A DNA stretch of 64,000 nucleotides from Selaginella tamariscina (lineage: Eukaryota; Streptophyta; Lycopodiopsida; Selaginellales; Selaginellaceae), in the NCBI GenBank assembly GCA_003024785.1, contig PUQB01000005.1:205732-269731 (forward strand), given 5' to 3'. Position 1 is the stretch's first letter. Every line of letters starts with the position of its first letter. Of the stretch, positions 18,459 through 64,000 are shown in pieces. The notes under the pieces are model-generated. The model searched no databases. It was not told the DNA's origin and saw nothing but the letters and a program-made list of their open reading frames with translations. Both the position numbers and the translations under genes were made by a program.

Positions 18459-18494
<36 letters not shown>

Positions 18495-21277: not shown

Positions 21278-21338
<61 letters not shown>

Positions 21339-27693: not shown

Positions 27694-27726
27694 CAGCGTG
27701 ACCAGGAGCAAGGGCAGGGACAGGAG
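27694..27726 (-). other. Orphan Ala/Pro mini-exon, copy 2
   Basis: Second copy of the orphan mini-exon, with both splice signals kept; compare 26430-26461 within the gene. Confidence 0.45.
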
Positions 27727-27729
27727 CTG

Positions 27730-28907: not shown

Positions 28908-28949
<42 letters not shown>

Positions 28950-37995: not shown

Positions 37996-38137
37996 GTTGA
38001 AGAGGAGCGTGAAGAACTTGTAATGGCTGTCCGGAGTTTGAGGAATGGTAGAAAGGCATCTTTCTAGATTCCATAAAAGAAATTTTTATATAAAAACAAA
38101 AATTTATACATTTTGAATGGCTTAAAACTTAGAAACA

Positions 38138-38175
<38 letters not shown>

Positions 38176-40493: not shown

Positions 40494-42898
<2,405 letters not shown>

Positions 42899-43994: not shown

Positions 43995-44092
43995 GTTTGA
44001 TAGTAACTGCTTTCATAACTCTTCGTTTCCCAGCTACTTTTTTTCCTTGATTCTTTTCCTTCGTTTTTCTCCTTTCTTTCTTCATAAGATCA

Positions 44093-45136
44093 TGGCTGAT
44101 TTTGAGCACTTTCAACGCGAGCACCAAATGTTGCTTCATAACTGGCTACTTTGCGCCAAGTGGTCATCGATCTGCAAGGCTCCACCCATGCGGCATGCAG
44201 CTGCTGATGCATCCTCCAAGGCTGCTGCGCAGGCTCTCTCTAGGCATCGGTGGTTCCTTCTTCATTGAACTTTTCTCCGGAGCCGAAGATCAGCATGCCA
44301 GAAAAGTTCAGTGGCAACCGTGCCGATTTCCAAGGTTTCCTGAATCAGATCCGACTCTTGATCCGCATGCAACCACGCCGCTACTCGACGAATGCACAAA
44401 AGGTTGGCCTTTTGACATCCTTACTAAGTGGATCTCCACGAGCTTGGGTTGCTCCCTTGCTGGAGCGTGATGACCCATTGATGGAGGACTTTGAAGGTTT
44501 CGTGGCTGCCTTTGAAGCTTGTTTTGGAGATCCTGATAAGTACTGTTCTGCATGCACCAAATTACGAGGCTCACACAAGGATCCAACCAGCTTCAGTTTA
44601 TACATCCGAATTCCAGCAATTGTGCACAAACATTCCATGGGACGAGACTGCGTTGATCGAACACTTTCGTTTTGGGCTGAGGATGATGTGAAGGACCTTC
44701 TCCTTACATTACGGATGCTCAAACATTAGCGGAGATCATGTAACAGGCCGTTTGCTGCGACAACCGTTTGTTCGAGCGCCGTCAAGAAAAATTCCGTCAG
44801 CAGTTCCTGCCAACGAATCCTGTAGCCGTAGCACATGTTCCTACGACACCTTCTGGAGCAGTTCCTATGGAGGTTAACAAATCCAAGCGTGGCCCACTTT
44901 CAACTGCTGAGAAGCAACGTCGTCGGGGTGAGAACCTATGCTTGTATTGTGGTGCAGCAGACACAAGGTGGCGGAATGTCCTAATAAAGCTAGAAGTTCA
45001 AGACGCATGAAGCCGAAGCTGAAGTTCAGTCGAAAAACTTCAATGTCCACTTCGTCTAGGAGCCGCGAAGTTGGACGTAGGTGCAGGCTCCATTGGTGCT
45101 GCTCATACCATGCAACCACTTTTAGCACTCATGCCT
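44093..45136 (+). pseudogene. gag of the first, truncated Ty3/gypsy unit
   Basis: Starts with ATG and encodes a peptide beginning MADFEHFQREHQMLLH. It matches the complete gag from 45611 over its whole length, up to a CCHC zinc-knuckle region near 44937. Broken fossil; it runs directly into a second partial LTR. Confidence 0.7.
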
Positions 45137-45140
45137 AGAT

Positions 45141-45518
45141 TAGCTCTTGGAGTTGTGAGCATAAAAGCTCCGACCTAATTGTTGTACAATCAGTTACTAT
45201 CAACACCAGTCTTACTACGATCAATCTCGTCTTGTCTTGTTCTTGTCTTGTTTCCTGTCCTGTTCCTGTCTCGCTCCTGTTTCCTGTCCTGTCCTGGATC
45301 TGTCCTGCTCCTGTTCCGGATCCTGTCCTTTCTGTCTTGTTCCTGGATCCTGTCCTGCGCTTCCTGTCTTGCTCCCGGATCCTATCCTGATCCTGTCTTG
45401 CTCCTAGATCCGTCCTGTTCCTTTCCTAGTTCCTGTCCTGCTCTCGGTCCTGTTCCTGAGTCAAGCCTTCCTTCTTGGAATCCTGTTCTCTTCCTGGTTC
45501 CTGGATCGTGGCTTGACA
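45141..45518 (+). mobile_element. Second, partial LTR between the two gag copies
   Basis: Matches about 43660-43994 of the 5' LTR, including the TATA-like region and the GGCTTGACA end. It lacks the GATACAGG array of the LTR start. Points to recombination between, or nesting of, two related elements. Confidence 0.75.
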
Positions 45519-45610
45519 GTTTGATAGTAACTGCTTCATAGTTCTCCGTTTTCCAGCTACCTTTTTCTTGATTCTTTTCCTTCATTTTCCTCCTTTTTCT
45601 TTCCTAGATC

Positions 45611-46586
45611 ATGGCTGATTTTGAGCGCTTTCAACGCGAGCACCAAATGTTACTTCATGAGCTGGCCACTTTGCGCCAAGTGGTCACCGACCTGCAAGGT
45701 TCCACCACTGCGGCACATGCAGCTGCTGATGCATCCTCCAAGGCTGCTGCGCAGGCTCTCCCAGGCATCGGTGGTTCCCTCTTCATCAAACTTTTCTTCG
45801 GAGCCGAAGGTTAGCATGCCAGAGAAGTTCAGTGGCAATCGTGCCGATTTCCAAGGTTTCCTGAATCAGATCCGGCTCTTGATCCGTATGCAACCACGGC
45901 GCTACTCGACTGATGCTCAAAAGGTGGGTCTTTTGGCATCCTTACTAAGTGGATCTCCACGGGCTTGGGTTGCCCCCTTGCTGGAGCGTGACGACCCATT
46001 GATGGAAGACTTTGAAGGTTTCGTGGCTGCCTTTGAAGCCTGTTTTGGAGATCCTGATAAGTACCGTTCTGCATGCACGAAGTTACGGAAGCTCACTCAA
46101 GGATCCCGACCAGCTTCCGTCTATGCATCCGAATTTCAGCAACTTTGCACGAACATTCCATGGGACGAGACTGCATTGATCGAACACTTCCGTTTTGGGT
46201 TGAGGGATGACGTGAAGGACCTTCTCCTTACGTTACCGGATGCCCAAACATTAGCGGAGATCATGCAACAAGCTGTTCGTTGCGACAACCGTTTGTTCGA
46301 GCGTCGTCAGGAAAGATCCCGTCAGCAGTTCCTGCAAACCAATCCTGCAGCTGTGGTACATGTTCCTGCACCACCTTCTGGAGTAGTTCCTATGGAGGTT
46401 GAGAAATCCAAGCGTGGCTCTCTTTCCGCTGCTGAGAAGCAACGTCGTCGCAGTGAGAACCTGTGCTTGTATTGTGGTGGAGCAGGACACAAGGTGGCAG
46501 ATTGTCCTATTAAAGCCAGGAACTTCAAGACGCGTGAAGTTGAAGCTGAAGTTCAGTCGGAAAACTCCAATGTCCACTTCGTCTAG
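45611..46586 (+). pseudogene. gag of the main Ty3/gypsy unit
   Basis: Encodes a capsid-type protein with the SMPEKFSGNRADFQGFLNQI region, a basic Arg/Gln-rich stretch and a CCHC zinc knuckle (CLYCGGAGHKVADC) near the end. These are the usual parts of Ty3/gypsy gag. Fossil; treated as broken. Confidence 0.8.
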
Positions 46587-46597
46587 GAGCCGCGAAG

Positions 46598-49500
46598 TTG
46601 GACGTAGGTGCAGGCTCCATTGGTGCTGCTCATACCATCCCATCACTTAAGTTTCCTGTACACATTCATCTTAATAATCGAGAGCTCATGGAGTTTGCCT
46701 TGTTAGACACTGGTGCAAATGCATGCTTCATGGATGACACGTTTGCAACTCAACATGGCATTTCGGTGGTGAAGTTGAAGCGTGCAGTTCCTGTAGAGGT
46801 GGCCGATGGGCGTCTGATTGCTTCTGGCGCAGTTACCCATGCTACCGAACCTCTCTCCTGCAGTATGGCACATTCAACTGTTCAATTTCCTTCAACTTGA
46901 TCAAGACATCGGCATGCCATGGTTCGTTGTTGCAAATCCGCAGATCGACTGGAGGTCTAGGACGCTCACGTTTTCCTCTCCGACAGCTAGGATCAATCCT
47001 GTACCTTCCTGTGTGCAGGATACATCCTTAGTATCTGAGGCAGTACAAGCTACAGGATTGACCGTGCCTGTTCCTGTACCAGTGTTGAAGACTCCTCCTC
47101 GACAGGATTCACCTCATGTCAGTTCCTCAGCACATCCACTCCTGTAAGTTTGCGGTGTCCTGTACAGGGTTCTTCCAATCCTGTATCAGTGTCGAAGGTT
47201 CCTCCTCAACAGGATCCACCTCCTGTTGATTCGTCAGCACATTCGCAGGCTTTCCCACTCTGCGCAACCACGGACTCCTGTACAGGATTCTTCCAATCCT
47301 GTACACTCATCAACACCCACACAGGTTTTTTCCAATCCTGCCTCTTTCTGTTACCCTGCTTCTGTTCCACCCCCAAGATCCTTCCTCTTTTTCAGTCACA
47401 GCTCCCTCCTTCTCCTCTCGAGTTCTTACCACTACCATGCATTGAACTCGCCACTGATCCTGCTCCTTTCCACCTTTTTGCCTTTCAAGTAACTCCTACG
47501 TCCTCTTCTACCTTTCCTGTATCCGACTCTCCTTTTTTCCTCTCCTTCTCCTTCTCCTCCTTCTTCCCTACCATCCAAGTACCACGACTTTAAGGACGTT
47601 TTTGACAAGCACAAGGCTGCAGTTCTTCCTGTTCACAGGTCCTACGACTGTCCTATTGATCTTGCGGAAGGAAAGACTCCACCATTCGGACCGATTTATG
47701 CATTGTCACCCACAGAGTTGGAGGTTCTTCGTCAGTACATCGAGGACAACTTGGCATCCGGCTTCATTCGTCACTCAAAGTCCCCTGCAGGAGGCCTATC
47801 TTCTTTGTCAAGAAGAAGGATGGGAGTTTACGTTTGGTTGTGGACTACAGGGGTTTGAATCAAGTCACCATTCGGAATCGGTACCCGTTGCCATTGATCC
47901 CGGAACTTCTCGATCGGCTGCGAGGAGCAAAGGTGTTCACGAAGATCGACTTACGAGGGGCCTACAACCTTGTACGGATTCGTCCCGGCGATGAGTGGAA
48001 GACTGCCTTTCGTACAAGGTATGGACATTTTGAGTACACGGTAATGCCTTTCGGCCTTACCAATGCCCCAGCCGTGTTCCAACACATGGTGAACGACATC
48101 TTTCGTGACTTCTTGGACCAGTTTGTGGTGATCTACCTCGACGACATCTTGATTTTCTCCAAGGACCAGGCGGCACATGACAAGCATGTACGACTAGTTC
48201 TAGAGCGGCTTCGCGAGCATGGCCTGTACGCGAAGTTGGAGAAGTGTTTTTTCGATAGGGATTCGGTGGAGTTCTTGGGCTACATCGTCTCTCCTGCTGG
48301 CGTTTCCATGGACATGCACAAGGTGAAGACCATCGTGGAGTGGGAGAGGCCCAAGTCGGTACGAGATGTACAATGTTTCCTTGGCTTTGCAAACTTCTAC
48401 AGGCGGTTCATACAGGACTTCTCCAAGCGTGTACTTCCACTCAGAACTCACCAAGCGCACAGGACTTTTCTCTTGGTCCGACAAGGCGGAACACGCGTTC
48501 ACAACACTCAAGGACTTCACGACAGCTCCGATTTTAGCACATCCTGACCCTTCTCATCCTTTCTTCATTGAAGCAGATGCCTCGGATTTTGCAGTAGGAT
48601 CCGTCCTATCGCAAGTTGGAGAGGACAAGTTGCTTCATCCTGTAGCTTTTCACTCTCGTAAGTTCCTGTCGGCGGAGATCAACTACGAGATTCATGACAA
48701 GGAACTCAAGGCCATTGTGGATTCGTTTGAGGAGTGGCGGCATTTCCTGGAAGGTGCTGCACATCCTGTACAAGTTCTTACGGATCACAAGAACCTGGAG
48801 TACTTTCAAACGGCTCGAGTTCTCAGTCGGCGACAGGCTAGGTGGGGAGTTCCTATCACGTTTTGACTTCGTCATCGTCTACAGGCCCGCTTTCGGAATG
48901 GCAAGGCGGACGCATTGTCTAGGCGCTCTTACCTTGCACCAAGCCCGGGCGATCCTGCATTTGACTGTCAAAGGCAAGTGTTGTTGGGTCCTGATCGATT
49001 CCGGCTTGCGGCACTGCAGGTTCATCAGGCTCCAGCAAATTCAACACTCCTACAGGACGTCCGTTCGCAGTTGGCTACAGACGACTTGGCAAAGAATGTG
49101 TTCTCACACATTCATCCTGACGTTGCAAGTTCCTCTTCCTCCAGTTCCCGTCCAGACTACAACCTGTTCACCATACAGGATGGACTCCTGTACCGGGAAG
49201 GTCTCCTGTACGTTCCTGTTGGTATTTCCAGGACTCGTGTGGTACAGGATTGTCATGATACCCCGGCTACAGGACATTTTGGTGTGGCCAAGACAGTGGA
49301 GTTGGTGACTCGCAACTATTGGTGGCCTGGGTTGCGAGGTTTTGTGGAGAGGTTTGTACGGAGTTGTGACACTTGTAGCAGGTCGAAGATGCCTCATCAT
49401 GCACCCTCTGGTCTTCTTCGTCCTCTTCCTGTTCCTTCTGCTCCTTGGAGATCCATTTCTATGGATTTCCTCACAGATCTTCCTCCTTCTCGTGGATTTG

Positions 49501-49919
49501 ATGCAGTTCTTGTGGTGGTTGACCGTTTCACCAAGCAGGCTCATTTCCTACCCTGCAACAAGACAGCTACAGGTCAGACAACTGCCGAGTTGGTGATCCG
49601 CGAGGTGTTCCGACATCATGGTCTTCCTGAGAGCATTGTTTCCGATCGAGGTCCACAATTCATGTCCAAGTTTTGGCGAGAGCTTCTTCGGAGTCTACAG
49701 GTTAAAGCGGATCTTTCTTCAGGATATCACCCACAAACCGATGGGCAGTCCGAACGCACAATTCAGACCTTAGAACAGTATCTTCGTTGCTTCATCAGTT
49801 ACCAGCAGGACAACTGGTTGGACCTCTTCCAATGGCGGAGTTTGCCTACAACAACTCCATCACGCATCTACAGGACAGACACCTTTCTTTGCTCTTACAG
49901 GCCACCATCCACGTTTTGA
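46598..49919 (+). pseudogene. pol of the Ty3/gypsy element (protease, RT, RNase H, integrase)
   Basis: Protease with LLDTGANA at about 46700-46760. Reverse transcriptase about 47800-48440 with [25 protein letters not shown] and the YLDD catalytic box. RNase H about 48480-48800 with [12 protein letters not shown]. Integrase about 49240-49850 with a zinc-binding region (HFGVAKTVEL, CDTCSRSK) and the core (VVVDRFTKQAHF, SDRGPQFMS, YHPQTDGQSERT). Family call is firm. A stretch of about 0.9 kb between protease and RT is Pro/Ser-rich and low in conservation. Broken in several places. A chromodomain, if any, would fall in the gap. Confidence 0.88.
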
Positions 49920-50169
49920 CTTTGCTCCTCCCGCTTCTCCTTCTTCCGCTCCTGCAGTACAGGATCGTCTTCAGCATCTTCGGCAGGTACAGGATGATCT
50001 CCAGGTTCATCTTCACAGGCACAGGAACGATACAAGCATCATGCTGATGCTCACCGTCAGCCGGCACCTGCATACAAGATTGGTGATCTCGTGTGGCTTC
50101 TTCGTCGACACATTCGCACCAACAGGCCTTCTTCTAAGTTGGATTTTCAACGATTGGGCCCTTACAGGA

Positions 50170-50985
50170 NNNNNNNNNNNNNNNNNNNNNNNNNNNNNNN
50201 NNNNNNNNNNNNNNNNNNNNNNNNNNNNNNNNNNNNNNNNNNNNNNNNNNNNNNNNNNNNNNNNNNNNNNNNNNNNNNNNNNNNNNNNNNNNNNNNNNNN
50301 NNNNNNNNNNNNNNNNNNNNNNNNNNNNNNNNNNNNNNNNNNNNNNNNNNNNNNNNNNNNNNNNNNNNNNNNNNNNNNNNNNNNNNNNNNNNNNNNNNNN
50401 NNNNNNNNNNNNNNNNNNNNNNNNNNNNNNNNNNNNNNNNNNNNNNNNNNNNNNNNNNNNNNNNNNNNNNNNNNNNNNNNNNNNNNNNNNNNNNNNNNNN
50501 NNNNNNNNNNNNNNNNNNNNNNNNNNNNNNNNNNNNNNNNNNNNNNNNNNNNNNNNNNNNNNNNNNNNNNNNNNNNNNNNNNNNNNNNNNNNNNNNNNNN
50601 NNNNNNNNNNNNNNNNNNNNNNNNNNNNNNNNNNNNNNNNNNNNNNNNNNNNNNNNNNNNNNNNNNNNNNNNNNNNNNNNNNNNNNNNNNNNNNNNNNNN
50701 NNNNNNNNNNNNNNNNNNNNNNNNNNNNNNNNNNNNNNNNNNNNNNNNNNNNNNNNNNNNNNNNNNNNNNNNNNNNNNNNNNNNNNNNNNNNNNNNNNNN
50801 NNNNNNNNNNNNNNNNNNNNNNNNNNNNNNNNNNNNNNNNNNNNNNNNNNNNNNNNNNNNNNNNNNNNNNNNNNNNNNNNNNNNNNNNNNNNNNNNNNNN
50901 NNNNNNNNNNNNNNNNNNNNNNNNNNNNNNNNNNNNNNNNNNNNNNNNNNNNNNNNNNNNNNNNNNNNNNNNNNNNNNNNNNNNN
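50170..50985. other. Assembly gap (816 N)
   Basis: Run of N between the end of pol and the 3' LTR remnant. The length may be only an estimate. Confidence 0.99.
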
Positions 50986-51204
50986 TATCCTGCTTCGGGA
51001 TCCTGTCCTGTTCCTGTCTTGTTCATGGATCTTGTCCTGCGCTTTCCTGTCTTGCTCCCGGATCCTATCCTGATCCTGTCTTGCTCCTAGATCCGTCCTG
51101 TTCCTATTTCTGTTTCTTGTCCTGCTCTCGGTCCTGTTCCTGAGTCAAGCCTTTCTATCCTTGGAATCCTGTTCTCTTCCTGGTTCCTGGATCGTGGCTT
51201 GACA
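50986..51204 (+). mobile_element. 3' LTR remnant of the Ty3/gypsy element
   Basis: Matches the last about 220 bases of the 5' LTR (about 43775-43994), ending GGATCGTGGCTTGACA. The start is hidden by the gap. Confidence 0.8.
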
Positions 51205-53385
51205 CAAATAACATCTGATTCTACCTTAAGTTTGACTTTTAGAGATACATTGGACTCACACGCTCAATTAGTGAAGATACATAGATGAAGAAGTGGACAA
51301 CTTAGATGTGTCCACAACAATCCAACTTCACTTCATGATTATGATAATTCACTAAGTAAATTCATTCGTTCTTAAAAGTTTTTTAAAAAAGTTTTTGAAA
51401 ATTGAGGAAATTCACTAAAATGTTGAAAATAATTTTTTAAATGAACACATTTGTTCCATGTATGACTCACTTCATTGATAATATATCAAATGACAACTAT
51501 TAGATATTTTACTAGTGTTTAATTTAACAGTAGGAACACATACAATATGGCCATGTGATGACTATGTCATGACCATGCTATGTATCATGATGTAATTAAT
51601 GATGTCCATATATGATTTAAAATTTTTGATTCATCATTTTTGTGTGAAATATCATCACTTTTAAGTGACACATCATCACTATTATTCCAAAATTCAAGTG
51701 TTATCTCTGTGAGATGTTTTGTATTTCATAAAATACTGAATGCAGATAAATTAAAGCAAGAAGTAAAAGACAATATGTGACATTGAAAAGTCACTTCAAC
51801 ATGATAAGAAAAAGACCCAAACACTAATAATCTAGCTTGTCACACAAGCGTGTGGTGAGCTAATGTTGGCAAAGCAACTACATCTTATCCCTAGGTCAAA
51901 AAACATGCTACATGCTATTGAAATTTTGAGTTCTTTTAAGATAGTGAGAGACCTCTAGAACAAAGTTGATCCACTTGGTCATTTATAACAAGCTTCAACT
52001 TGATACCACTATAAGAGTGTAAGACCAATGTTGGGCAAAAGTCAAAGTTGATAAAGAATTGAAACTACCATATGGAAGAATGCTAAGAGTTCTTATAAGC
52101 AAATTTAGTTGCATGTAGCAGATCAATCCAATCATCATGTTAGTATGAAATAAAGTAATAAAGGTATTGTTCTAATGTTTAAATAGTGTTTGATAGTTTG
52201 TCTTTGAATGGTGAGCGATTGCTAACTTTTCTTTGATCTAAAAATATTCAAAGAACCATCATCAAAAGTCAAAAGTGAATTGAGGACCTCAATACTTATC
52301 ACCAAGAAAATTCTGAAGACAAAATACCTTGATATATTAAGTCTATAGTATCATGACCAAAGTATATTTTATTAGAATAAAATGTGCCATCTTAGAAAAT
52401 TGGTTAACCACTACCAAAACTAGATCAAACTATAAGAAACTAAAAGATTTGTAAGGAAATCCATGGAGATGACTTTCATGAATGTTTTCCAATATGAAGA
52501 GGTTGGAGAAAGCTCATTAATATTAAGGAAGCTTGATACACTGCCACAAGTCACCAAAACAAATAAATTGTTCCACATATTTTATAGAACTAAAACACAC
52601 ATTGAACCAACTCATGGTCTTTTGAATATTAAAATGGTTAGTTGTAGGTGTATCATAATAATTTAAACCACAAGAAGATGAAGATCTCTTTATGTAACAT
52701 GAATTTGAGTGTAATAATACAACAATCCATTATTAAGATAGAAAGTTGAATAACCATGAAATACACACCCTTAGAAACAAAAAGAAAATGAAAAATAAAA
52801 AATAAAAAAGGTAGTGAGTTGTGATACCCATGATGAGACTTGTATTGTATTAAATAAAGGAAAAAAAAGAAATAATAAATGCAAGTTGTAACTAAAATGG
52901 GCATGGCTATAGTCCCATTTCCTAATAATTAGCAATTTTAGCTATTTAATTAGCATTTTCTAATATTAAAGGAATATTCTTTAGAATATATGTTTGAAAA
53001 GAGAATATTCTTTAGAATATTCTATTTTGTATTCTACCCTTTAATAAATTATAGCATTCATTGAACAAAAATTAATAACATTATAAAAGTAGAATGTATT
53101 AAATTATATAATATATTGCCTAATATAACAATTAAGGAAGAGCATAAGAGGTACATTATATAAATATTGATGTTGTTATTAAAATATTAATATTTAAATA
53201 TAACATTATTAATTAAAAATTTGTAGTAGTAATAATATATATATAAAATCCTATAATAATATAGTCAATCTTCCATATCATTTTTTAAATTTATATAGTT
53301 AAGTATACAATTTGGTACTATTATTAAAGAGTTTATAATAATTATGAATATTAAATATATGATATTTTATAATTTTGTAATTGCT
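51205..53385. other. AT-rich intergenic region, no gene recognised
   Basis: About 2.2 kb. No open frame longer than about 80 codons and none that resembles a known family. Near 52971-53025 there are several GAATATTC palindromes like those upstream of the NTPase/PHD gene. Around 51990-52020 a minus-strand TGGTATCAA resembles a retroelement primer site, but no element could be outlined. Confidence 0.6.
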
Positions 53386-56300
53386 TTAAGCTTCAGAAAA
53401 CATACATTCCCTTGCAGTTTTGTTAATCGTGACTTTATCAACGCTTCTTGACATCCACCCATATCGAATGGATTTAACATTTATAAAACATGCTGGGTCT
53501 TTTTGATTGGGAGACCATGTTTTCTCTAGGCATCCATTATATCTTTCGCTCTCCTTCTCGTGTCGCCTTTTTTGTGGTTTGAACCATGCAACCTTAACAA
53601 TACTATTTTTTGTGATTACTTCAGGTGTGTCGATAATTTGACCCATCCAAATAGGCTGATTATATGACGCATCTGGAGTAATGAGAACCATCATTAGTTT
53701 TTGAAGATCCTTGCAGCAATCAAAGTATGCTTTAGGTTTTTGGTTCCTTTGTCCAACAAAGTGTGGGGTTTGCACTTCCACATCACTACTGGCTTCTATG
53801 TCGTCTATGCTCAGTGATGTCATTTCAATCTCCTCTCGCCACCTTGTTTTAGGCCAGAAAGGGTGTTGCAATTCTGTACTTGTGACAGTAGGCCCTTCCA
53901 ACTCTCGAACAACAGTCTCCCAATAGTTGACCACATGCTTATATAGTTCTGAGTAACCAGTTGCCTTATCAGAATTCTTTGGCATCGATTTTTGAACCCA
54001 TGCCACATATTTTTTGATGCCATCAATAATAACCTCTTGTTCCTTGAGCTGGGCACTCAATGGAATAGGGTCTGGTTGTCCTTCTGGGAGAAGTGGCTTT
54101 CCATCCTCTCCACTTTTGAAGAGCATTAAGCCCTCTTTCGGTAACCACTCCTGCTCTGATGGCCGTAACTTGTACTGCATAATAGGTATACCATCTCGTA
54201 TGGAGAAAAAGAATTGTAGCGGCACAAGGTGACCAACTAAAGAATCACTCCCTTCTTTTATATACTCCTTGAGAAATTTTTTGAAGTCTGGCACCTCAGT
54301 CACAAGCAAAGCACAACTTTTTTTGGAGATGCAATTTTCAAAAAGATTCATCATATGCGGTAAGGTAAGTGCACTTGTCCTTTTTGTAGAGTTGGAGACC
54401 TTGCTGAAGAACGCATCAATATCTTCATGAGTGTGACCAACCATAAGGAAACTGAGCGTGATTGTTTCAAACACACCTTTGGCAACAAGCATTGACAAGT
54501 ATGCTAGCACATATCTAGAAAATAAAAGTAAGTATGAGCTTGAGAAACCCTTAAGTAAAATGATTTACCTATTTTTGTTCTCGCCTGCACAATTATCCAT
54601 CTGTAAAAGCAAATGACGAGGAAGCTTATTTGATGTTGAGGACACATGTACACTATTTGAGCTAGATCCCTCCACTGAACCTGAACTCTCAACAGGGCCA
54701 TCTGTTTTTTGTGCAGGTTGCTGACAATGCCTCTCATATTCCCAAGTAGCCTCAAGTGCAGATGTGTTCATGAGAGCATTATGTAAAGGTTGAAGGTGTT
54801 GTTTCTTCACTTTGAGATCACTGATAGGACTTGTCTGTGAGTGGGCTTCAAGGTTTCTGAAACACATGGCTAACGACCCAATAGTGAAATTGGAGTCGCT
54901 AGACCAATGTGGAAGTGAAAAGTGTCCATATGACTCACAACCGTGTCCATGTGTTAGCACACCTGTCAATGAAATCGGAAGTTTCATGACATTTCCAAGG
55001 CACTTTGGTGTTGCAAAGAGCTTTGGAATGCTGGTCTTTGAATGATCCATCTTGTCATGGATCAAGCACAGGTACTCTGATGGGCGTGACACAGAAAGCA
55101 TGCGGTGTGCATAGTACTGAGACCGGCAAGTTTGTTGTGCAATCATGTGGGCCTCCATCTTCCTTTGAATGGTAGTGATCTCCACCAAGGTTTTTGCACA
55201 AGCCTCTGCAGCCTTCAATGATGTACAAGTGTCACACTTAGAAAAGCTAGAGTGTTTTGCAATCTCCACATCCTTAAAATGAGTATTCCATATGTTGTTG
55301 AAGGTACCAGTGCAGATTGCTTGGAGCCCCATCAAACTGAGGCACTTGTTCACATGTTCACACAGTTTCAATTGAGTGTAGATTGAAGGTAAAACCTTGA
55401 GATTTTCCCTGACCCCTGCATTTGTGGTTCGGCATTTGTGAGGCATCCTGTCTGCATTTGCTTCCACAAAAGCCTTGAGTATCTCTATGGCTGCCATGAT
55501 GTGAGAGCGGGTTTTGACCAAGCGAGTGTTCCCATGAACTGAGGTTCGCGCTCCATCTAGCCACTCATCCCTCCGACGGTAGAACGTGGTCTTTGGGATC
55601 CCGTATATACTGTACCAAGCTTTGAAGCAGATGGCCACCTTATTAAATACCATGGATGTACTCTGATAACCTGTGTCCGAGGCCATTCCATCAATACACC
55701 CAGTTAGTGCAGCATATACAAACTCATGCCTTTGCTTTTGGGTGAGCATACGAAAGACATGTCTACATTGGGTAATTTCATTCCGGTCTGCCATCTGACA
55801 ACACTTCTTCTTGCAACAGTCAATCGTGGAAATGCTCGTAACACTTTCGGAAGATGTAGGATCCATCTTTACCCTCTTGCTGAAACTTGCAGGGGAAGAT
55901 CTACAACCCATGAATCGCCTTTTTCTTACAATAGGACCAATGCAAGGAACCTCTTCAAATATGAGTTGTTCTTCCGGGTTGTTATTATTGAAATCCAACC
56001 CAGAATATGTTGAACCATCTTGCCGTCTTAATTCAGATGTTCGCCACCTCACGAGGGATCCAGGATACAATGTGCCATTAGGTGAAACCTCTGTCACAAC
56101 TACACCCACGAAGTCGGACCCTAGTTTCTCTTCTGACACTGCTTCCATTGGATTTATAGCTGTGATGATGCCTCTTCCGACTTCAATCTCACGAAGAAAG
56201 AGAATCACCTCATCCATCACAGCAGGCAAGCCATCATCTGGTAAACTCGTGCTACTATTTGTTTGTGACTCTGCATATTCTGTGTCAGCCTTGACTTCAT

Positions 56301-56505
56301 CCAAATTCCACAATACAGGAGAACCCTCCTCAAATTCCATTCCCAGAACCTCAACATGCTTGTAAATGGTGTTCACCCATACGTACACACAAGATCCTTG
56401 GGCAATATTGTGACATGATGCATTATTATCTCGAACTTCCACAGTTCCAGTGCCAACTATCTCGTTGTTCCGAAGAAGACATACTTTATCTCCAGTATTA
56501 AACAT
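53386..56505 (-). CDS. DUF7869-like transposase-related protein, two exons, apparently intact
   Basis: Exon 1 ends at 54569 and exon 2 is 53386-54514. The 54-base intron has GT-AG borders and the phase joins as ENKN-R-YVLAYL. The start is taken as ATG 56503-56505; a CAG acceptor at 56512 fits a leader intron, and the open frame extends only a few codons further. The protein has about 1020 residues: an N-terminal domain (GDKVCLLRNNEIVGTG, then VLGMEFEEGSPVLW), a Cys-rich stretch (CCKKKCCQ), a zinc-ribbon-like FSKCDTCTSLKAA, then acidic motifs HDKMDHSKT, LLLQMDNCAGENKNR and FLMVGHTHEDIDAFFSKV. The last two are typical of the DUF7869 family in mosses, ferns and other plants, which I infer to be RNase-H-fold, transposase-derived proteins. 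No stop or frame change seen, unlike the rest of the window. Confidence 0.8.
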
Positions 56506-56658
56506 ATTGTCCTGCACATAAATAATTGTATTATTTATGATATCTGTTTATGCAATATTTCTAAGAAATCTGAATTACGGTTACTTAATAATATGCATAT
56601 GCAATAATACATAATTATGTTTAGAGATAATATCTCATGTTTGATTAATACAACTGAT

Positions 56659-57390
56659 GGGCGGGATTAATCCCGCCCACGAATCCCTCCGACGAGGAAC
56701 GGTCGGCGGGATTAATCCCGCCGCCGACTCAACCCCTTCGGAGAGAGTCGGCGGGATTAATCCCGCCTTGGACTCCCTCCGACAAGGAAGAGCCGGCGGG
56801 ATTAATCCCGCCGCCTCTTCCTCCTCGGGGGAGTCCGGCGGGATTAATCCCGCCGACTCTCTCCGACGAGGAAGGGAGTCCGGCGGGATTAATCCCGCCG
56901 ACTCATCCTCGCCGGAGAGAGTCGGCGGGATTAATCCCGCCGGACTCCCCCGAGGAGGAAGAGGCGGCGGGATTAATCCCGCCGGCTCTTCCTTGTCGGA
57001 GGGAGTCCAAGGCGGGATTAATCCCGCCCACAATTCTTACGACGGGGAATGGGTGGCGGGATTAAACCCGCACATAACTCTCTCCAAAACTATGATTTCA
57101 AAGAGATCTCGGGATAAATCCTGTCCCCAAATCTTAAAACAGGGAGTGGTGGCGAGATTAATCCCGCCACCCCTTCCCTGCCTCCTAAAATGGTTGGCGG
57201 GATTAATCCCGCCGACAACTCTTTCTAATAAATTCTGGTAACTCTTCATCAGTTGAGAAGGTTATCGACGGGATTAATCCCGCCACTCTTTTTCAGTGGC
57301 GGAGAAGCATTGCCCGGGAGATGGTGGCGGGATTAATCCCGCCACCTCTTCGAAGAGGCGAAAAAGAAATGGCCGGATTAATCCCGCCGC
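56659..57390. repeat. Palindrome array 1: about 14 copies of GGCGGGATTAATCCCGCC
   Basis: An 18-bp perfect palindrome, often extended to 20 bp, repeats with centres near 56668, 56713, 56758, 56803, 56845, 56890, 56932, 56974, 57019 and 57063, then less regularly to 57380. The steps are 45, 45, 45, 42, 45, 42, 42, 45 and 44 bases. The spacers (24-27 bases) are variations on a CTCCGACGAGGAAG theme. The core half GGGATTA/TAATCCC is the same on both strands. Not a CRISPR: the host is a eukaryote and the spacers are related to each other. Confidence 0.95.
56750..57028. repeat. Large inverted repeat built from the palindromes
   Basis: Around the palindrome centred at 56890 the array reads the same on both strands. 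The spacer after 56767 is the exact reverse complement of that after 56983 (27 of 27), and the spacer after 56812 is the exact reverse complement of that after 56941 (24 of 24). The innermost pair (after 56854 and 56899) matches apart from a few bases and a 3-base indel. The arms are about 140 bases each. Confidence 0.9.
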
Positions 57391-57556
57391 CCGGTTAACC
57401 TAGAATATTAAGTTAAAAGGATATTTAAACGGGATAAATCCCTAACGGAATATATTATAATCCTAATGCATTCTAAACCCCTAAATTGTAATTTTAAGAG
57501 AGAATGTAAGAGAGTGAATCTTTATAAGTATTTTTAAATTTGTTTATAATACTTAC

Positions 57557-57740
57557 TTGTAAACAGCACTGAAGGCGCCGTGCTTTCCTATAAAGAATAG
57601 CACCCAATTTAATCTCGCTCCTGAGATGATCACTATGAAGAAAAAAGAAGATCTAAAGAGTGAAAAATACAGAAATGAAGAAACCCTTGCCGGAGAAAGA
57701 ACCAGATCTGAATTTGAGTGGGAAATTAAATGCATTTTCA
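57557..57740 (-). other. Predicted noncoding leader exon of the DUF7869-like gene
   Basis: On the minus strand a CT-rich, UTR-like stretch ends in TTTACAA followed by GTAAGTATT, a strong donor. Joined to the acceptor at 56512 it would give a leader intron of about 1045 bases (56512-57556) that contains the whole first palindrome array. The 5' end of the exon is a guess. Confidence 0.4.
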
Positions 57741-57994
57741 AATTTACATGTCAGACCGACAATACATATGTCAGAAATTCAAATTTTTAAAAAGAACAGA
57801 AAATAAAATTTAAGATGAGTTGACACAAATATCCGACACTCTGACATATATACTCTCCAGTTCCAATGAGTATTTTAAAATTGCATTTAATGTTATTCAA
57901 GTGATTCAAGCTGTTTAATTTATTAAAATTTTAATATAATTCTTATATTCAAGTATATTATATATTAATATATATATATAATATATACTTATAC

Positions 57995-58630
57995 AATAAA
58001 TAAATTGATATATTATTATGTATCATTTAAAATATATTCATAGTCTGTTTATTATTATTATTTTCTTAATTACTCGAGTATTTAGTTTTCATTTCCTAGT
58101 ATCAATGGGATATTCTTTAATATTTTATTAATATTTGAAGAATATTCTAATATTAAACCTGATTATCATAATTAAATTAGTCTTGTTCTTAATTATTGCA
58201 GTAATTATTCTACATTTGTATATATTAATGGGATTTTCTCAATTAATTTGTTATTATTTCAAGAATATTCATGTGTTAAACCTTATTATCAATATTAAAT
58301 TAATACACACTATGAACATATTTTAAATTATACATAATAATACATCATTTTATCTAATATATAGTCATATATAGTTTTAATAATATATATATTAATATCA
58401 TTTCCTTAATTACTTGAGTAATTAATCTTCTTTATATTAATGGGATTTTCTCAATTAATTTCTTATTATTTCAAGAATATTTCAATGTTAAACCTTTTAT
58501 CAATATTAAATTAATATATATTATTAAAACTATATATGGCTATATATTAATAAAATCATATATTATTATGTATAATTTAAAATATGTTCATAGTGTGTTT
58601 ATTAATATTATTTTCTTAATTATTCGATGT
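57995..58630. repeat. AT-rich degenerate tandem repeats
   Basis: Three copies of a block beginning near ATTAATGGGATTTTCTCAATT and ending TATCAATATTAAATTAAT lie at about 58098-58182, 58218-58303 and 58433-58517. A second block (TATGTAT/TAATTTAAAATAT, then CATAGTCTGTTTATTA) occurs at about 58010-58083 and 58568-58628. Confidence 0.65.
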
Positions 58631-58859
58631 TTGTTTTGCACACATATATAAACACAATCATAAATTTACACACGCATTACAAGAACTTACAAAAACACAT
58701 ATGCACACACATGCACAACCCTAAACCAAACTGAAGAAATATGTTGCTTCTTTATTGAAAACATCATGTTCAACGCATGTATGATATATGTACTCAATCT
58801 GTGTGTATGTAACACATTGAATTTACATGTGTAATATTTATATTAAGCTTGTTGGGAGC

Positions 58860-58887
58860 AAACCCTAAACCCTAAACCCTAAACCCT
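58860..58887. repeat. Interstitial telomere repeat 1
   Basis: Just under four tandem CCCTAAA units (plant-type telomere repeat). Confidence 0.9.
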
Positions 58888-58951
58888 GTGTATACATGTG
58901 TGTACAAAAATAATTTTTCAACACTCTCTCTTCACACCATGCATGATCCAT

Positions 58952-58970
58952 CCTAAACCCTAAACCCTAA
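58952..58970. repeat. Interstitial telomere repeat 2
   Basis: Two to three CCCTAAA units, about 65 bases after the first cluster. Confidence 0.85.
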
Positions 58971-59406
58971 TATGTAACACAATGAATTTACTCATGTAAT
59001 ATGTATGTATGTCTGTGTGTATACACGTGTGCATGTATATATGTGTACTCTGTATGTATATATGTGTACTTTCTGTCTTCTCTCATACATACACACCATG
59101 CATGATCCATGTTAATATGTACTGTCTCTCTTCTCTCAAACATACACACCATGCATGATCTATAATATGTACTCGGTCTCTTAATATTATGTACTAATAT
59201 GTATGTATGTCTGTGTGTATAATACACACCATGCATGATCCATAATATGTACTGTCTCTCTTCTCTCATATACTATGTATGTATATCTGTGTATAATATG
59301 TGTAAGTATATATGTGTACTAATATATGCAATGTGTACAAAAATAATTTTTCAACACTCTCTCTTCTCTCATACATACACACCATGCATGATCCATCCTA
59401 AATCCA

Positions 59407-59433
59407 AAACCCTAAACCCTAAACCCTAAACCC
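59407..59433. repeat. Interstitial telomere repeat 3
   Basis: Just under four CCCTAAA units, inside the second copy of a repeat block that also surrounds cluster 2. Confidence 0.9.
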
Positions 59434-59759
59434 ATGTAATATGTATGTATGTCTGTGTGTATACACGTGTGTATATATTATGTGTATTAATATATGCAAT
59501 GTGTATGTATGTATTGATACACATGAAACTTTAACACTCTCATGGACACACACATGTTAAATCCCTGCATGATTTATATTTTTGGGGTGTATGTGATACA
59601 CCCACGCACACGCACGCGCTAATAATATAATGAAAGAATATTCGTTTAGGGCGAATCTATATTTTATTCTTTTTAGGGTTTAAGTATATTCTCAAAGGAA
59701 TATTTATTAGGGTTAATATATATATTTAATTCCTTTAGGGTTTAGGTATATTCTTAGGG

Positions 59760-59808
59760 TTTCAAGAGGCGGCGGCTGTGAAATCGGCGGCGGCGGCTGT
59801 GCACACAG
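59760..59808 (+). other. Possible leader exon of the ParB-like gene
   Basis: A GGCGGCGGCTGTG-rich segment ends at 59808 in CACACAG followed by GTGAGATCTG, a good donor. It could splice to the TTTTGCAG acceptor at 62732. That would place the repeats of 59809-62732, with palindrome array 2, in a leader intron. The 5' end is unknown. Confidence 0.3.
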
Positions 59809-59811
59809 GTG

Positions 59812-59814
59812 AGA

Positions 59815-59857
<43 letters not shown>

Positions 59858-60115
59858 ATAGGAGTGTGTATAAATTTATTTATTAGTTTTATCTCTCGCA
59901 CACACACGCACACTCCTGTGTATGTATATGTGTGTGTGGGTGTGTGTTTGTTTATCTGTATGATTTTATTTGTTTCGCTCACACACGCATACACACGATA
60001 TACATATACACATTATATATATACCTATATACATATATACATACATATATTATGTGTACCAGTATCTGTAAATTTTTTTTTATTGATCTATCTCTCCCAC
60101 ACACACGCACACTGC

Positions 60116-60169
<54 letters not shown>

Positions 60170-60799
60170 ATCAATGCATATTAACAAATAGTATACAACA
60201 CTAGTTTATATATATGCTTATATATTCATATGGGTTATATATCTATATACACACATATATATATGTGTGTGTTTATCTGTATAATTTTATTTATTTATTA
60301 GTTTTATCTCTCGCACACACACGCACACTCCTGTGTATGTATATGTGTGTGTGTGTATTTGTTTATCTGTATGATTTTATTTGTTTCGCTCACACACGCA
60401 TACACACAATATACATATACACATATATATACCTATATACATATATACATACATACAACACTAGTTTATATATATGCTTATATATTCACAGACTCTCTCT
60501 CTTTCTCTATGGATTATATATCTATATACACACATATATATGTGTGTGTTTATCTGTATAATTTTATTTATTTATTAGTTTTATCTTTCGCACACACACG
60601 CACACTCCTGTGTATATATATGTGTGTGTGTGTGTTTGTTTATCTGTATGATTTTATTTGTTTCGCTCACACGCATACACACGATATACATATACACACA
60701 TATATATACCTATGTACACACATATATTATGTGTACCAGTACTGTATAATTTATTTATTTATCTATCTCTTGCACACACACGTACACTCCTATACATAC

Positions 60800-60830
<31 letters not shown>

Positions 60831-60905
60831 CACACACACATATATATATGTGTGTGTTTTTATCTGTATAATTTTTTTATTTATTAATTTTATCTCTCGC
60901 ACACA
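59812..60905. repeat. CA/GT/TA-rich tandem repeats
   Basis: A block of roughly 280-400 bases, with TTTATCTGTATGATTTTATTTG, CGCACACACACGCACACTCC and TATACATATACACAT segments, recurs about four times. The sub-block TTTTATCTCTCGCACACAC appears near 59889, 60303, 60582 and 60890. Interleaved with pure GT and CA tracts (59816-59850, 60119-60154). Confidence 0.75.
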
Positions 60906-60920
60906 CGCTAAGCCCCTCGA

Positions 60921-62430
60921 GCGGCGGGATTAATCCCGCCGCTATAGGTTTATGGCCTCGGCGGCGGGATTAATCCCGCCGCTATAGGGGCCATGCAACG
61001 GGATTAATCCGCCGCCCATGGCCTGCGTGAGGGGCCTCGCGGCGGGATTAATCCCGCCGCTCACCCATGCCCTGCGCGGAATGCGGCGGGATTTATCTCG
61101 CCGGCAATGGCCTGTGTGAAGGCCCTAATGGGCGGGATTAATCCCGCGGATTCCGCGCAGGGCATTTACAGGGATGGGCGGCGGGATTAATCCCGCCGCT
61201 CATGAGGCTAACCGAAGAGCCTGCATGAAAGATCCTGCACGGAAGGCTAACCGAAGAGCCTGCATGACATGTCCTGCGCGTAAGGCGGCGGGATTAATCC
61301 CGCCGCCCAGGGAATTCACGCAGGACATGAACGGCGGGATTAATCCGGCCCCACGCTCATGCCCTTCGCGGAGGGCGGCGGGATTAATCCCGCCGCTCAG
61401 GCACTTCCGCAGGATATAAGCGGCGGGATTAATCCCGCCCCCACCCATCCCTGTTCAAAATGCCGCAGCCAATATATATGTGTGAGCGCATGATTTACGA
61501 GAGGGCGGCGGATTAGTCTCTCCGAACCTTCATTACCCGGTGGCGGGATTAATCCCGCCACCCTTCTTTTTTCCTCCATTGGTATGTTGAATCAATCCCG
61601 ACTAACTCTGTCTGAGACGGAGAAGGTTTACAAAATACCAATGGAGGGAACTGAGAAGGGTGGTGGGATTAATTTCACCATCCCTTACATGGTGGGCGGG
61701 ATTAATCCCGCCGCGTACGCATGCCCTGCGCGGAATCGGGCGGGATTTATCCCGCCGCCATTGGCCTTCCTGAAGGGCCTAGGCGGCGGGATTAATCCCG
61801 CAAGATTTCGCACAGGGCATTGGCGTTCGCGGGATTAATCCCGCCGACTAAGGCCTGAGTGAAGGGCCTGGGACGCGGGATTAATCTCGCCGCGTACGCA
61901 TGCCCTGCGGAATCGGGCGGGATTTATCCCGCCGCCATTGGCCTGCCTGAAGTGCCTAGGCGGCGGGATTAATCCCGCCCATTCCGCGCAGGGAATTGGC
62001 GTCCGCGGATTAATCCCCGCATAGGGACCGAGTGAAGGCCCTGGGCGGCGGATTAATCCCGCCGAGTCTTCAATGCCTGTTGGAGGAATGAATCCCGCCA
62101 CCCTTCCTTTGTTTTCTCCATTGGTGAGTCGGACCAATCCCAAACGTTTCTGTCTGAGACGTAGAAGGTTTTCAACATACCAATGGAGAGAATTGGGAAG
62201 GGTGGGGAAATTCATTTAACCATCACTTACATGGTGGGCGAGATTAATCCCGCCCCCTTTCTGGAGTCACTGAAGGGGTGTGAGAAATAAATCCTGCCCA
62301 GTTCTCTCTGAACCGAGAAGGGTGGCAAGATTAATTCCGCACTCCCGTTCAAGGCCTCCAGAAAGGTGGCGAGATTAATCCCGCCCACTCTTTCAGGAGG
62401 CATTGAAGGGGTGGCGAGATTAATCCCGCC
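60921..62430. repeat. Palindrome array 2: about 30 copies of the same palindrome
   Basis: GGCGGGATTAATCCCGCC and degenerate forms occur from 60923 to 62430. Clear cores lie at 60923, 60963, 61041, 61180, 61287, 61377, 61422, 61542, 61695, 61785 and 61962. Spacing is 40-100 bases and less regular than in array 1. Spacers carry a second motif, CATGCCCTGCGCGGAAT, in both orientations (for example about 61069 and 61145). Variants such as GGCGGGATTTATCCCGCC and GGCGAGATTAATCCCGCC occur toward the right end. Confidence 0.95.
61575..62250. repeat. Higher-order repeat inside palindrome array 2
   Basis: The segment 61575-61712 (CCATTGGT..., GTCTGAGACG, CATACCAATGG-like, CTTACATGGTGGGCG) returns at about 62118-62254, so the period is about 543 bases. 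Within it, a block of about 177 bases starting GTACGCATGCCCTGCG (about 61715) repeats at about 61894. CCATTGGTATG and CATACCAATGG form inverted pairs within each higher unit. Confidence 0.75.
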
Positions 62431-62544
62431 GCACCTTCCATGTGAATATATATGTGTATTAGTATATATAAGTTGCATATCTCATTTTATTTACTTTTAT
62501 CATCTTATCATAATATTTCGAGTAAAAGCTAGGAATCTATATAA

Positions 62545-62631
62545 AACTGTCCAGAGCTCACATTTGTGGTGGTTCTAAAACGAAATGTTATCTTTCTTTT
62601 GCACTAACACAAATGTGAGCTTCGGACAGTT
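62545..62631. other. Hairpin with 24-bp arms upstream of the ParB-like gene
   Basis: Left arm 62545-62568 and right arm 62608-62631 are reverse complements in 22 of 24 positions (CACATTTGTG side and ACTGTCC side), with a 39-base loop. It could be a small MITE or a structured RNA segment. It lies about 140 bases before the ATG and 100 before the 62732 acceptor. Confidence 0.6.
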
Positions 62632-62771
62632 AATACGTCTACTTCTCTCTGTGTATTATTTTTGTATATTCGGGTTTATACAAGTGTGTGTGCGTTTTTA
62701 TATATTTGTATTCATAGTGTATTATTTTGCAGAAGGACGATTTGATCAAACAAGGAGATCGAGTCATTAGT

Positions 62772-64000
62772 ATGGAGTCGTCGTCAAATTCTGGGTAAGA
62801 ATTAAAATAAAATCTGTTATACTCGGATACTTGAACTAATCATTTTTGTATTCAGATGTGGAATTGAGGTGACATTAAAGACAAGAGCAGGAGAAGAGAT
62901 GGGCAGGGGGATTCTGGAATCAACTTGGCCATATTTTAAGATAAATGGGAAGCGCATTGGAGCAACCATGGCTGCTGTCAAATTAACCTCTGTCACATCT
63001 CATGGACAAGCAAAACAATGGAAAGTAGATTCGCTAGTCAAGCACCCGAAAGCAGGCTGCGAACCCAGATTGGACGATTCTCGACACATATGCCTTGTTC
63101 CATCCAATGTCACGTTCTCGGATCCAGAGGTCGTCAGTTACAACATTAATTTCGGGTGGTTTTGTCGACTTGTGGATAATGACGTTCACGTGTTCACTAA
63201 TGATGTTGACCTTGGAGTTCTTCTTCAACTCAACGAAAGCCCATCTATGGAGGGGATCCATCTGGATGTCTACTTCGAAAATCTTCAGACTCATCGAGTA
63301 GGTGTATTGTCAGGAGATATTGCTTCACAATACAGAAAATCAGCAAGTGAGCAATCTTCCCTCTTCACATTGAAGAAGAACACAGCGACATCATAATGGA
63401 GATTGAGAGGGTGGCTCGGTCTCAGGTTCTCTACAGATCACGTTCAATTTGCTTAGGGAGCTTTGGGAGCTGGAAGAGTGTACCGAGAACACTAGAACAG
63501 CTGCAGTCGGGGATCACACATGTTGATTCGGATCGCAAAAGAAAATCATCAATCGTTTTGTCAGCTGCACCTGTGGCATCTCATGCTGCAATAAGTCACA
63601 AGGAAATGATGTTGGATGATAAGATTTATCCTTGTAGGGTTAAATATTGCAGCGTCAACCCAAACTTCAATTACAGGCCACTCAACCAGGAACGTGTAGC
63701 TGAGCTCATGGAGAAGATGAAGGACGACAATTCTTATACCGTTCCACATAATGCTGTTTTGTGTCCATACTATGAAAGAAGGAAGGGCGCTGACAAAGTC
63801 TGGATCACAACACCAGAACAACTCATGAAGATTCAGACGGAGAATAAAAAATCTATCAAGTACTACATCATTAGTGGCCAGCACACAATAACGGCAGCCC
63901 AACGACTTCTCGAGGAACACAACAAAGGAACGATGGCAACAAAACTTTCCGAGCATACCCGTGAGAAGCTGACAAAAAGATCGGCGTTTTTAGCTAAGCC
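62772..64000 (+). CDS. ParB/sulfiredoxin-like domain protein (partial at right edge)
   Basis: ATG at 62772; exon 1 to 62794, a 61-base GT-AG intron (62795-62855), then exon 2 from 62856, giving MESSSNSGCGIEVTLKTR. The first about 180 residues (through GFWCRLV-like NFGWFCRLVDNDVHVF) are not recognised. The frame ends at 63396, where another frame, open to the window edge, takes over; the change lies about 63370-63396, with a second plausible switch near 63440-63530, so indels or an unseen intron are likely. The later part reads KIYPCRVKYCSVNP, YRPLNQERVAELMEKMKDD and YYIISGQHTITAAQRL. This fits a ParB/Srx-type fold, with GQHTITAAQ in the place of the family's G-x-H-R-x-x-A-A motif. The arginine is missing, so catalytic activity is doubtful. 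Divergent from the DUF7869-like gene. Confidence 0.6.

Follow-up and report, generated by a model that had tools for sequence, protein, structure and literature searches.

An 18-bp palindrome arrayed in predicted leader introns of a large, high-copy DNA transposon of Selaginella tamariscina, possibly for self-recognition

The window analysed here, a 64,000-nucleotide stretch of a Selaginella tamariscina contig, contains two divergent genes separated by two arrays of an 18-bp perfect palindrome, with positions that agree with those proposed in an initial annotation of the sequence. The first gene lies on the minus strand (53386-56505) and encodes a transposase of 1021 amino acids, with an intact frame and one predicted intron (54515-54568). 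Both exon frames matched the DUF7869 family (PF25273), with 94.1 and 47.2 bits against a gathering cut-off of 26, in such a way that the transposase-like gene expected beside the array can now be assigned to this family. DUF7869 was the only Pfam match in these exons, and none of the MULE type or the Tnp2 type was found. Against the six copies of the gene having more than two changes, dN/dS values of 0.20-0.46 were obtained. Three relatives (P0001-P0003), located on contigs of 3.6-5.3 kb, share 33-37% identity with it across 52-97% of the first exon; a fold model of P0001 built from 4 sequences was set aside (mean pLDDT 36).

The second gene runs on the plus strand from 62772 to 64000 and beyond the window end, with a predicted exon (62772-62795), an intron (62796-62853) and then coding sequence. 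Just past the window end, a predicted 61-bp intron (64173-64233, in coordinates extended beyond the window) contains one further palindrome, and a NIF/FCP1-like phosphatase frame comes further along (around 66470-67309 extended; PF03031, E = 1.2e-9). In the window copy the frame shifts by one base near 63345-63350, and a programmed frame change or a very short intron was dropped as its explanation because the other copies keep the frame there. The gene had been described as ParB-like, a label that found no support: ParB was sought in Pfam up to E = 10, in NCBIfam and in PDB sequences and gave no match, a protein database search with a length filter that may hide long relatives gave no support either, and the fold model of the product was unusable (pLDDT 35). 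Nor was any DNA-binding domain recognised in the product with Pfam, NCBIfam or PDB sequences. The product may contain a ParB/Srx-like motif; a methyltransferase-like one suspected in a later exon was discarded after finding no support in Pfam, PDB or the protein search. The N-terminal modules of the two gene products are weakly alike.

In total, 36 copies of the palindrome at up to 2 mismatches, 21 of them exact, were counted in the window, where none is expected by chance (0 matches in 100 dinucleotide shuffles). Array 1 (56660-57388, no strand assigned) holds 15 copies of GGCGGGATTAATCCCGCC at up to 2 mismatches, 11 exact, mainly at steps of 42-45 bp, and includes a 126-bp inverted repeat with 98% identity (56747-56872 and 56906-57031). 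Array 2 (60923-62430, likewise unstranded) holds 21 copies at up to 2 mismatches, 10 exact, 25 at up to 4 and 26 at up to 5. The initial estimate of about 14 copies for the first array was thus close, and the second array is also real, its estimate of about 30 copies being somewhat high given that only 25 or 26 were found at the looser thresholds. The two arrays were also said to be the only places of the window with the 18-mer, in agreement with the 0 sites at up to 4 mismatches in positions 1-52879. The AT-rich middle (57557-59808, unstranded) comprises the leaders and, presumably, a two-way promoter between them, with microsatellites and short CCCTAAA runs, and no palindrome at up to 5 mismatches.

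Both arrays are placed inside predicted leader introns, called by splice-site consensus and not from RNA. That of the transposase gene (56512-57556, minus strand) encloses array 1; its donor, ACAA/GTAAGT, occurs in every one of the 9 rows aligned, the window's among them, and its acceptor, GTGCAG/GACAATATG, in 8 of 9, the alignment of S173 ending short there. That of the second gene (59809-62732, plus strand) encloses array 2, with the acceptor TTTTGCAG/AAGG in all 8 rows aligned, again counting the window, and the donor CACACAG/GTGAGAT in no more than 3 rows, close relatives that are the ones alignable at this point. The leader-intron placement suggested before is therefore consistent with conserved splice sites. 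All 41 sites of the window's element at up to 4 mismatches fall inside three predicted introns, which make up 27% of the element.

The arrays belong to a large, high-copy and recently active DNA transposon with terminal inverted repeats. The element is about 14.7 kb long, from window position 52880 to about 3.6 kb beyond the window end, and its imperfect terminal inverted repeats of about 26 bp lie at 52880-52905 (plus strand, TGCAAGTTGTAACTAAAATGGGCATG), where homology among the copies begins, and at 67574-67599 in extended coordinates (minus strand, TGCACGTTGTAACTAAAGTGGGCATG), 3.6 kb past the window end. The ends read TGCA[A/C/T]GTTGTAAC. No clear target-site duplication was found in the five two-ended copies (WIN, A, B, second C and D): four showed nothing, and copy A a low-complexity TATAT. 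Genome-wide, 27,128 exact copies of the 18-mer were counted, against 0 for the reversed control. A genome search for a link between arrays and genes had been proposed, and the link was found in the part covered, contig C1 from its start to 2.08 Mb, where 10 of 11 clusters have one or both element genes; the remaining cluster has no gene match and weak similarity to the element only, and none of the 11 is plainly apart from it. A satellite or chance origin of the 18-mer was rejected on the absence of matches in the shuffles and the reversed control, together with these gene-linked clusters. No phage or viral relatives emerged, the single IMG/VR match being a viral contig with one palindrome between genes, at about chance level by our estimate; protein scans of viral contigs gave no relatives of the frames of either gene. 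The initial annotation had overlooked that arrays and genes are parts of a single transposon, present in many copies and bounded by terminal inverted repeats. A literature search by title and start of abstract, with thin coverage of subscription papers, gave no described element like this one.

Conservation of the palindromes was measured between the window's element and 9 other copies at 8 loci, using BLAST pieces of at least 2000 bp. The palindromes carried 110 substitutions in 3832 positions (2.9%) and the spacers 659 in 7971 (8.3%), the palindrome value being lower at 8 of 8 loci, with the reservation that alignment of tandem arrays may pair non-orthologous units and inflate the spacer differences. 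These values uphold the earlier view that the palindrome itself is conserved despite varying spacers. Its 8-bp core diverged by 1.1% (18/1704), close to the transposase coding sequence (347/24928, 1.4%) and less than the coding sequence of the second gene (326/9095, 3.6%). Deletions are not below those of the spacers everywhere, as at locus E (0.93% in palindromes and 0.75% in spacers). Among the seven copies having both arrays the number of exact sites varies from 7 to 25. Next to the second gene, the final two sites follow each other at the same step of 44-45 bp in every one of the 8 copies extending that far, and the final four at similar steps in 7 of them. Being steadier than the intervening DNA, the palindromes may well be landing sites by which the element, or a factor of the host, controls the element's copies.

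Within the 18-mer, changes are mainly one-sided (339, against 9 compensated pairs and 4 uncompensated two-sided changes), so that strict symmetry is not enforced outside the core. Position 10 is rather variable, with 26 changes, and the commonest variant, GGCGAGATTAATCCCGCC, was found at 32 sites. Among main-family core sites fitting GAT[A/T][A/T]ATC, 256 of 296 read GATTAATC and the other 40 read GATTTATC, GATAAATC or GATATATC, some of these being perhaps chance matches outside arrays. The same pattern fits 32 sites of an older subfamily, every one of which reads GATTAATC, with symmetric arms in the versions TGGCCGG..CCGGCCA (5 sites) and TGGCGGG..CCCGCCA (5 sites). The dyad reaches one base beyond the 18-mer, as the next outer bases are complementary in 58% of 166 flanks and in 40% of shuffled ones; offsets 2-6 are about as shuffled, and offsets 7 and 8 are higher (41% vs 31% and 48% vs 35%).

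We propose, with a probability of roughly 0.45, that the intronic arrays are sites for a protein binding as a symmetric dimer, most likely encoded by the element itself, and that they serve in self-recognition or anti-silencing. The candidate binder would be the second gene product or the transposase. Clustered binding at 42-46-bp steps beside both gene starts would mark every copy of the family, and the bound arrays would keep both genes transcribed, perhaps by autoregulation, or spared from host silencing, with an effect limited to the transposon's own family. Against this reading stand the lack of a recognised DNA-binding domain in the second gene product, the mainly one-sided changes of the 18-mer and the one C1 cluster with no gene match.

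A host protein is a rather unlikely alternative, in which the arrays would be sites of a WOX-type homeodomain factor, so that the element would be expressed in stem-cell or germ-line tissue, where transposition is heritable. The lead is retained because both strands of the core, GGATTAATCC, include TTAATCC, one of the forms of TTAATSS, an element that the accessible part of one report describes as bound by the WOX homeodomain protein PtrWOX13A (PMC9274204). Conservation resides in the core rather than in the GC arms, and the core recurs in the older subfamily (32/32), as this reading would have it. Here, however, the motif is arrayed within the long dyad of a transposon, and an 18-20-bp dyad exceeds the length that such a site needs; position 10 is variable, the GATTTATC variant (26/296 main-family core sites) lacks TTAATSS on either strand, and none of the 11 C1 clusters covered stood plainly apart from the element.

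A role in RNA is quite unlikely: the leader introns would form chains of hairpins for small-RNA pathways, for binding of proteins to RNA or for control of splicing. It would account for the location of 41 of 41 sites in predicted introns and for the 126-bp inverted repeat of array 1, and folding of the 145 distinct spacers is a little stronger than that of shuffled sequence (mean z -0.74, with 68% under the shuffled mean), in a test that is weak because the spacers are not independent. Compensation is however mostly absent, the loop side is conserved more than the stem, and GGCGAGATTAATCCCGCC, which puts an A-C mismatch in the stem, occupies the same places beside the second gene in several copies.

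Binding of the transposase in cis for excision, as with the subterminal repeats of CACTA elements, is very unlikely. Arrays of a motif bound by an element protein are required for CACTA transposition, as far as the available text of PMC2613891 goes; the arrays here occupy the middle of the element, with about 3.8 kb between them and the left end and 5.2 kb to the right end. A functionless tandem repeat, passively homogenised by slippage and gene conversion, is to be doubted just as strongly. Unit turnover and higher-order repeats are indeed plain in the arrays, yet of about 45 bp per unit chiefly the 18 bp are conserved, and the lone palindrome in the predicted 61-bp intron, beyond the reach of tandem homogenisation, has the same sequence in all 8 close copies, among them the window's, and is altered yet recognisable in a 78%-identical copy; it is modest evidence, as the close copies are young there. 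A ParB-parS-like partition system, suggested by parS-like palindromic sites adjoining a gene with a possible ParB/Srx-like motif, is hardly tenable for a chromosomal, dispersed element for which neither Pfam (to E = 10) nor PDB sequences gave a match to ParB, and whose scanned frames gave no ATPase match over a curated cut-off.

To our knowledge, few transposons possess a system of their own that singles out their copies by a motif and shields them from host silencing. Tentatively, the element may represent an undescribed type of large plant DNA transposon, whose own dimeric protein would read a perfect palindrome present tens of times in the leader introns of both its genes, with anti-silencing that arose independently of VANC and about 27,000 identical sites in a 300-Mb genome. 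If so, it would be a second, independent example of motif-based self-recognition, its motif being a perfect palindrome with thousands of sites in a single genome, meaning that the strategy recurs, and it would offer a site together with candidate proteins ready for binding and methylation work. Even if the binder were a host factor, about 27,000 identical sites would have been added to the genome.

Among known systems, the CACTA/En-Spm elements (soybean Tgmt*, maize En/Spm, with TNPA-like binders) resemble this one as large plant DNA transposons with palindrome-forming motif arrays, according to the part of PMC2613891 available. Their arrays are subterminal, whereas those described here are central and lie in predicted introns; their ends begin with CACTA and not TGCA, they make a 3-bp target-site duplication, none being clear here in five two-ended copies, and their Tnp2-type transposase is replaced here by one matching DUF7869 in both exons. 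VANDAL elements of Arabidopsis carry a MULE-type transposase and differ likewise from this DUF7869 element, which has other companion genes, and the motif of the VANDAL21/VANC21 anti-silencing system, whose protein binds it and induces loss of DNA methylation, is the 9-base YAGTATTAY instead of a long perfect palindrome. In our best reading, the arrays would nevertheless work like VANC motif arrays, without the element being a VANDAL. VANC, which the transposon itself encodes, binds a short motif whose tandem repeats occupy introns and upstream sequence within its own family (PMC5735166, in the text accessible). For VANDAL21/VANC21, the accessible portions of PMC5735166 and PMC10398659 describe a short motif that occurs many times in the introns of the element's own genes and upstream of them, is enriched within the family and is gained and lost as tandem repeats; similarly, the palindromes are noncoding at 41 of 41 sites and linked to element genes in 10 of 11 clusters of the 2.08 Mb of C1, and their exact copies vary from 7 to 25 among related elements.

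The distribution of the 18-mer palindrome GGCGGGATTAATCCCGCC was studied in the window and in the genome. At up to 2 mismatches, the window holds 36 sites (21 exact, against 0 in 100 shuffles), which are gathered in array 1 (56660-57388, 15 sites), beside the start of the transposase gene, and in array 2 (60923-62430, 21 sites), beside that of the divergent second gene. The initial annotation had placed around 30 copies in array 2; the array itself is real, with a smaller number of sites (25 at up to 4 mismatches and 26 at up to 5). Its view that the 18-mer is confined to the arrays within the window was confirmed, with no sites at up to 4 mismatches in 1-52879. The genome (300.7 Mb, 1391 contigs) contains 27,128 exact copies, and the same letters read backwards, used as a control, do not occur in it. 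A viral contig also carries one exact copy in an intergenic hairpin (L001:146-163), probably by chance. The rest of the window includes a 16.7-kb direct duplication (4869-21589 and 24555-41226, 98.6% identical) with additional, diverged pieces at 13-2272/41139-43441, a Ty3/gypsy-type retrotransposon (around 43649-51204) with gag, reverse transcriptase and integrase matches and CCTG-rich repeats, and, between the arrays, short telomere-like CCCTAAA runs (58860-58887 and 59397-59433), which are in keeping with a plant genome.

Clusters of the 18-mer were grouped from the first 100 of the exact sites, all on one contig (C1) up to position 2,083,341, and the window was compared with twenty 10-kb stretches (18 on C1 near listed sites, 2 downstream of the window) and with a further 5.5 kb and 12.5 kb of C1. 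Asked whether the arrays always lie beside DUF7869-like or ParB-like genes, the matches listed gave 11 clusters, 10 of them with one or both of the DUF7869 gene and the second gene, whose position and orientation relative to the arrays match those found in the window. In three of the ten (S125, S173 and S314) the transposase alone or the second gene alone was seen, as the copy is incomplete or the compared stretch stops short, and at S2055 the second-gene piece is diverged (71%). The exception is C1:2071485, a diverged array of 17 sites (up to 5 mismatches) in 3.5 kb with no protein match, beside DNA that is 68-70% like the window intergenic region, a weak match in low-complexity DNA. The compared part of C1 has around 9 exact sites per cluster, and the site density of C1 is about half of the genome mean; by extrapolation, were this part typical, some 3000 clusters would exist genome-wide, fragments included. 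A rearranged relative at C1 around 2054337-2057000 (L033, L027) combines a second-gene piece, a transposase 3' piece and an inverted left end, and the remains of a far more ancient second gene (L026, D_1794, oriented 4300-6200; pieces of 40-58% identity) have decayed GGATTTATCC-type palindromes upstream.

Among the matches listed, the alignments of element copies share start and stop points. These place the left end of the 14,720-bp element at 52880, with TGCAAGTTGTAACTAAAATGGGCATG, and its right end at 67574-67599 (window-extended coordinates), where TGCACGTTGTAACTAAAGTGGGCATG is read on the opposite strand. Both ends are present in five copies (the window's own, A, B, the second C and D), and in copy E the right end is altered. 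A target-site duplication was sought in the five two-ended copies; none was found in four, and A showed a low-complexity TATAT. The C copies at C1:912539 (L021) and C1:931147 (L023) have identical 20-bp left flanks, so one of them probably arose by segmental duplication, the transposon being copied together with its surroundings.

The transposase gene (53386-56505, minus strand) reads through 1021 codons without a frame break, across one predicted 54-bp intron; both exon frames match PF25273, and the first exon has three relatives at 33-37% identity. The dN/dS of the window copy against six copies with more than 2 changes was 0.20-0.46, and values of up to 0.86 for pairs formed by the other copies, and of 2.4 for a single young pair that differs by 1 synonymous and 9 non-synonymous changes, indicate that not every copy is under constraint. 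The coding sequences of the window, B and E copies are 0 to 2 substitutions apart, small indels aside, so the movement or duplication of the element was recent. In the window, the frame of the second gene (predicted start 62772, plus strand) shifts by one base near 63345-63350, a point at which it is unbroken in other copies; single-base indels are frequent among copies and may reflect decay or errors of assembly. The label "ParB-like" for this gene, based on a motif, found no support in Pfam, NCBIfam, PDB sequences, the protein database or a single-sequence fold. Its product (62854-63393) and the transposase (54565-56505) have a weak N-terminal module in common (11/37 identical, E = 4e-4 for the pair). 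After the second gene lies a NIF/FCP1-like phosphatase frame (L010:3202-4041, window-extended 66470-67309; PF03031, E = 1.2e-9, 38.5 bits, cut-off 21.8), which seems an unusual cargo for a transposon.

Introns were called from donor/acceptor prediction and conservation in aligned copies, the row counts including the window's row. Array 1 falls in a predicted leader intron from 57556 to 56512 (minus), whose donor is kept in 9/9 rows and its acceptor in 8/9, one alignment ending there. Array 2 falls in another, from 59809 to 62732 (plus), with the acceptor kept in 8/8 rows; its predicted donor, which is present only in the 3 closely related rows that reach this point, is the least certain intron end. 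One more palindrome is contained in a 61-bp intron predicted within the second gene; it is identical in 8/8 close copies (window included) and reads AGCAGGATTTATTTCGCT in a copy with 78% identity over this part. All 41 sites (up to 4 mismatches) of the window's element are within three predicted introns that make up 27% of it.

Substitutions were counted between the window and nine element copies at 8 other loci, in BLAST pieces of at least 2000 bp. The palindromes had 110/3832, divided into 18/1704 in the 8-bp core and 92/2128 in the arms, compared with 659/7971 in the spacers (a figure that out-of-register tandem alignment would inflate), 491/8790 in the middle AT region, 347/24928 in the transposase CDS and 326/9095 in the second-gene CDS. 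The palindrome rate was below the spacer rate at all 8 loci. In total, deletions (2.5% vs 4.3%) and insertions (1.6% vs 5.1%) were also lower in palindromes, but this trend does not extend to every locus (at E, deletions 0.93% vs 0.75%). Exact sites range from 7 to 25 among seven copies with both arrays, and neighbouring sites are most often 44-46 bp apart, counted as steps; the step between the two sites closest to the second gene is kept in 8/8 copies, and those among the closest four in 7/8. Array 1 contains two 126-bp stretches that are 98% complementary. The first bases outside the 18-mer are complementary in 58% of 166 flanks vs 40% when shuffled, which extends the dyad to 20 bp; flank offsets 7 and 8 are also complementary more often than shuffled. 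An older subfamily (S2055, L030) has GATTAATC in 32/32 sites fitting GAT[A/T][A/T]ATC, the only sites counted, and two symmetric arm versions with 5 exact copies each.

These dense, noncoding, core-conserved, family-linked and fast-turnover arrays resemble those of VANC-type systems, which makes an element-encoded dimeric DNA-binding protein the likeliest reading (probability around 0.45); such a protein would bind the arrays, and its binding would keep the transposon family expressed. The main rival, which we consider improbable, is binding by a host homeodomain factor of the WOX type: the core has TTAATCC on both strands, and PtrWOX13A binds TTAATSS (PMC9274204), but GATTTATC sites lack TTAATSS on either strand. 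Action as RNA hairpins is less likely, as pair changes within the 18-mer were 339 one-sided, 9 compensated and 4 two-sided without pairing, so RNA pairing is not what maintains the arms. Roles as transposition sites or as passive repeats are likewise less likely. A literature search, with subscription papers mostly outside its coverage, returned no description of such an element or 18-mer.

The proposed element-encoded binder has its closest comparison in the Arabidopsis VANDAL transposons. There, VANC21 binds YAGTATTAY, a motif that is tandemly repeated upstream of VANA21 as well as within VANC21 and VANB21 introns, and the family loses methylation through the action of VANC (PMC5735166 and PMC10398659). 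As in those systems, the arrays here are dense and noncoding, adjoin both gene starts, occur with one family and turn over fast, and the core of the palindrome varies roughly as little as protein-coding DNA does. The subterminal repeats of CACTA elements offer a comparable principle of action (PMC2613891), whereas the arrays described here are central and the ends and the transposase are different.
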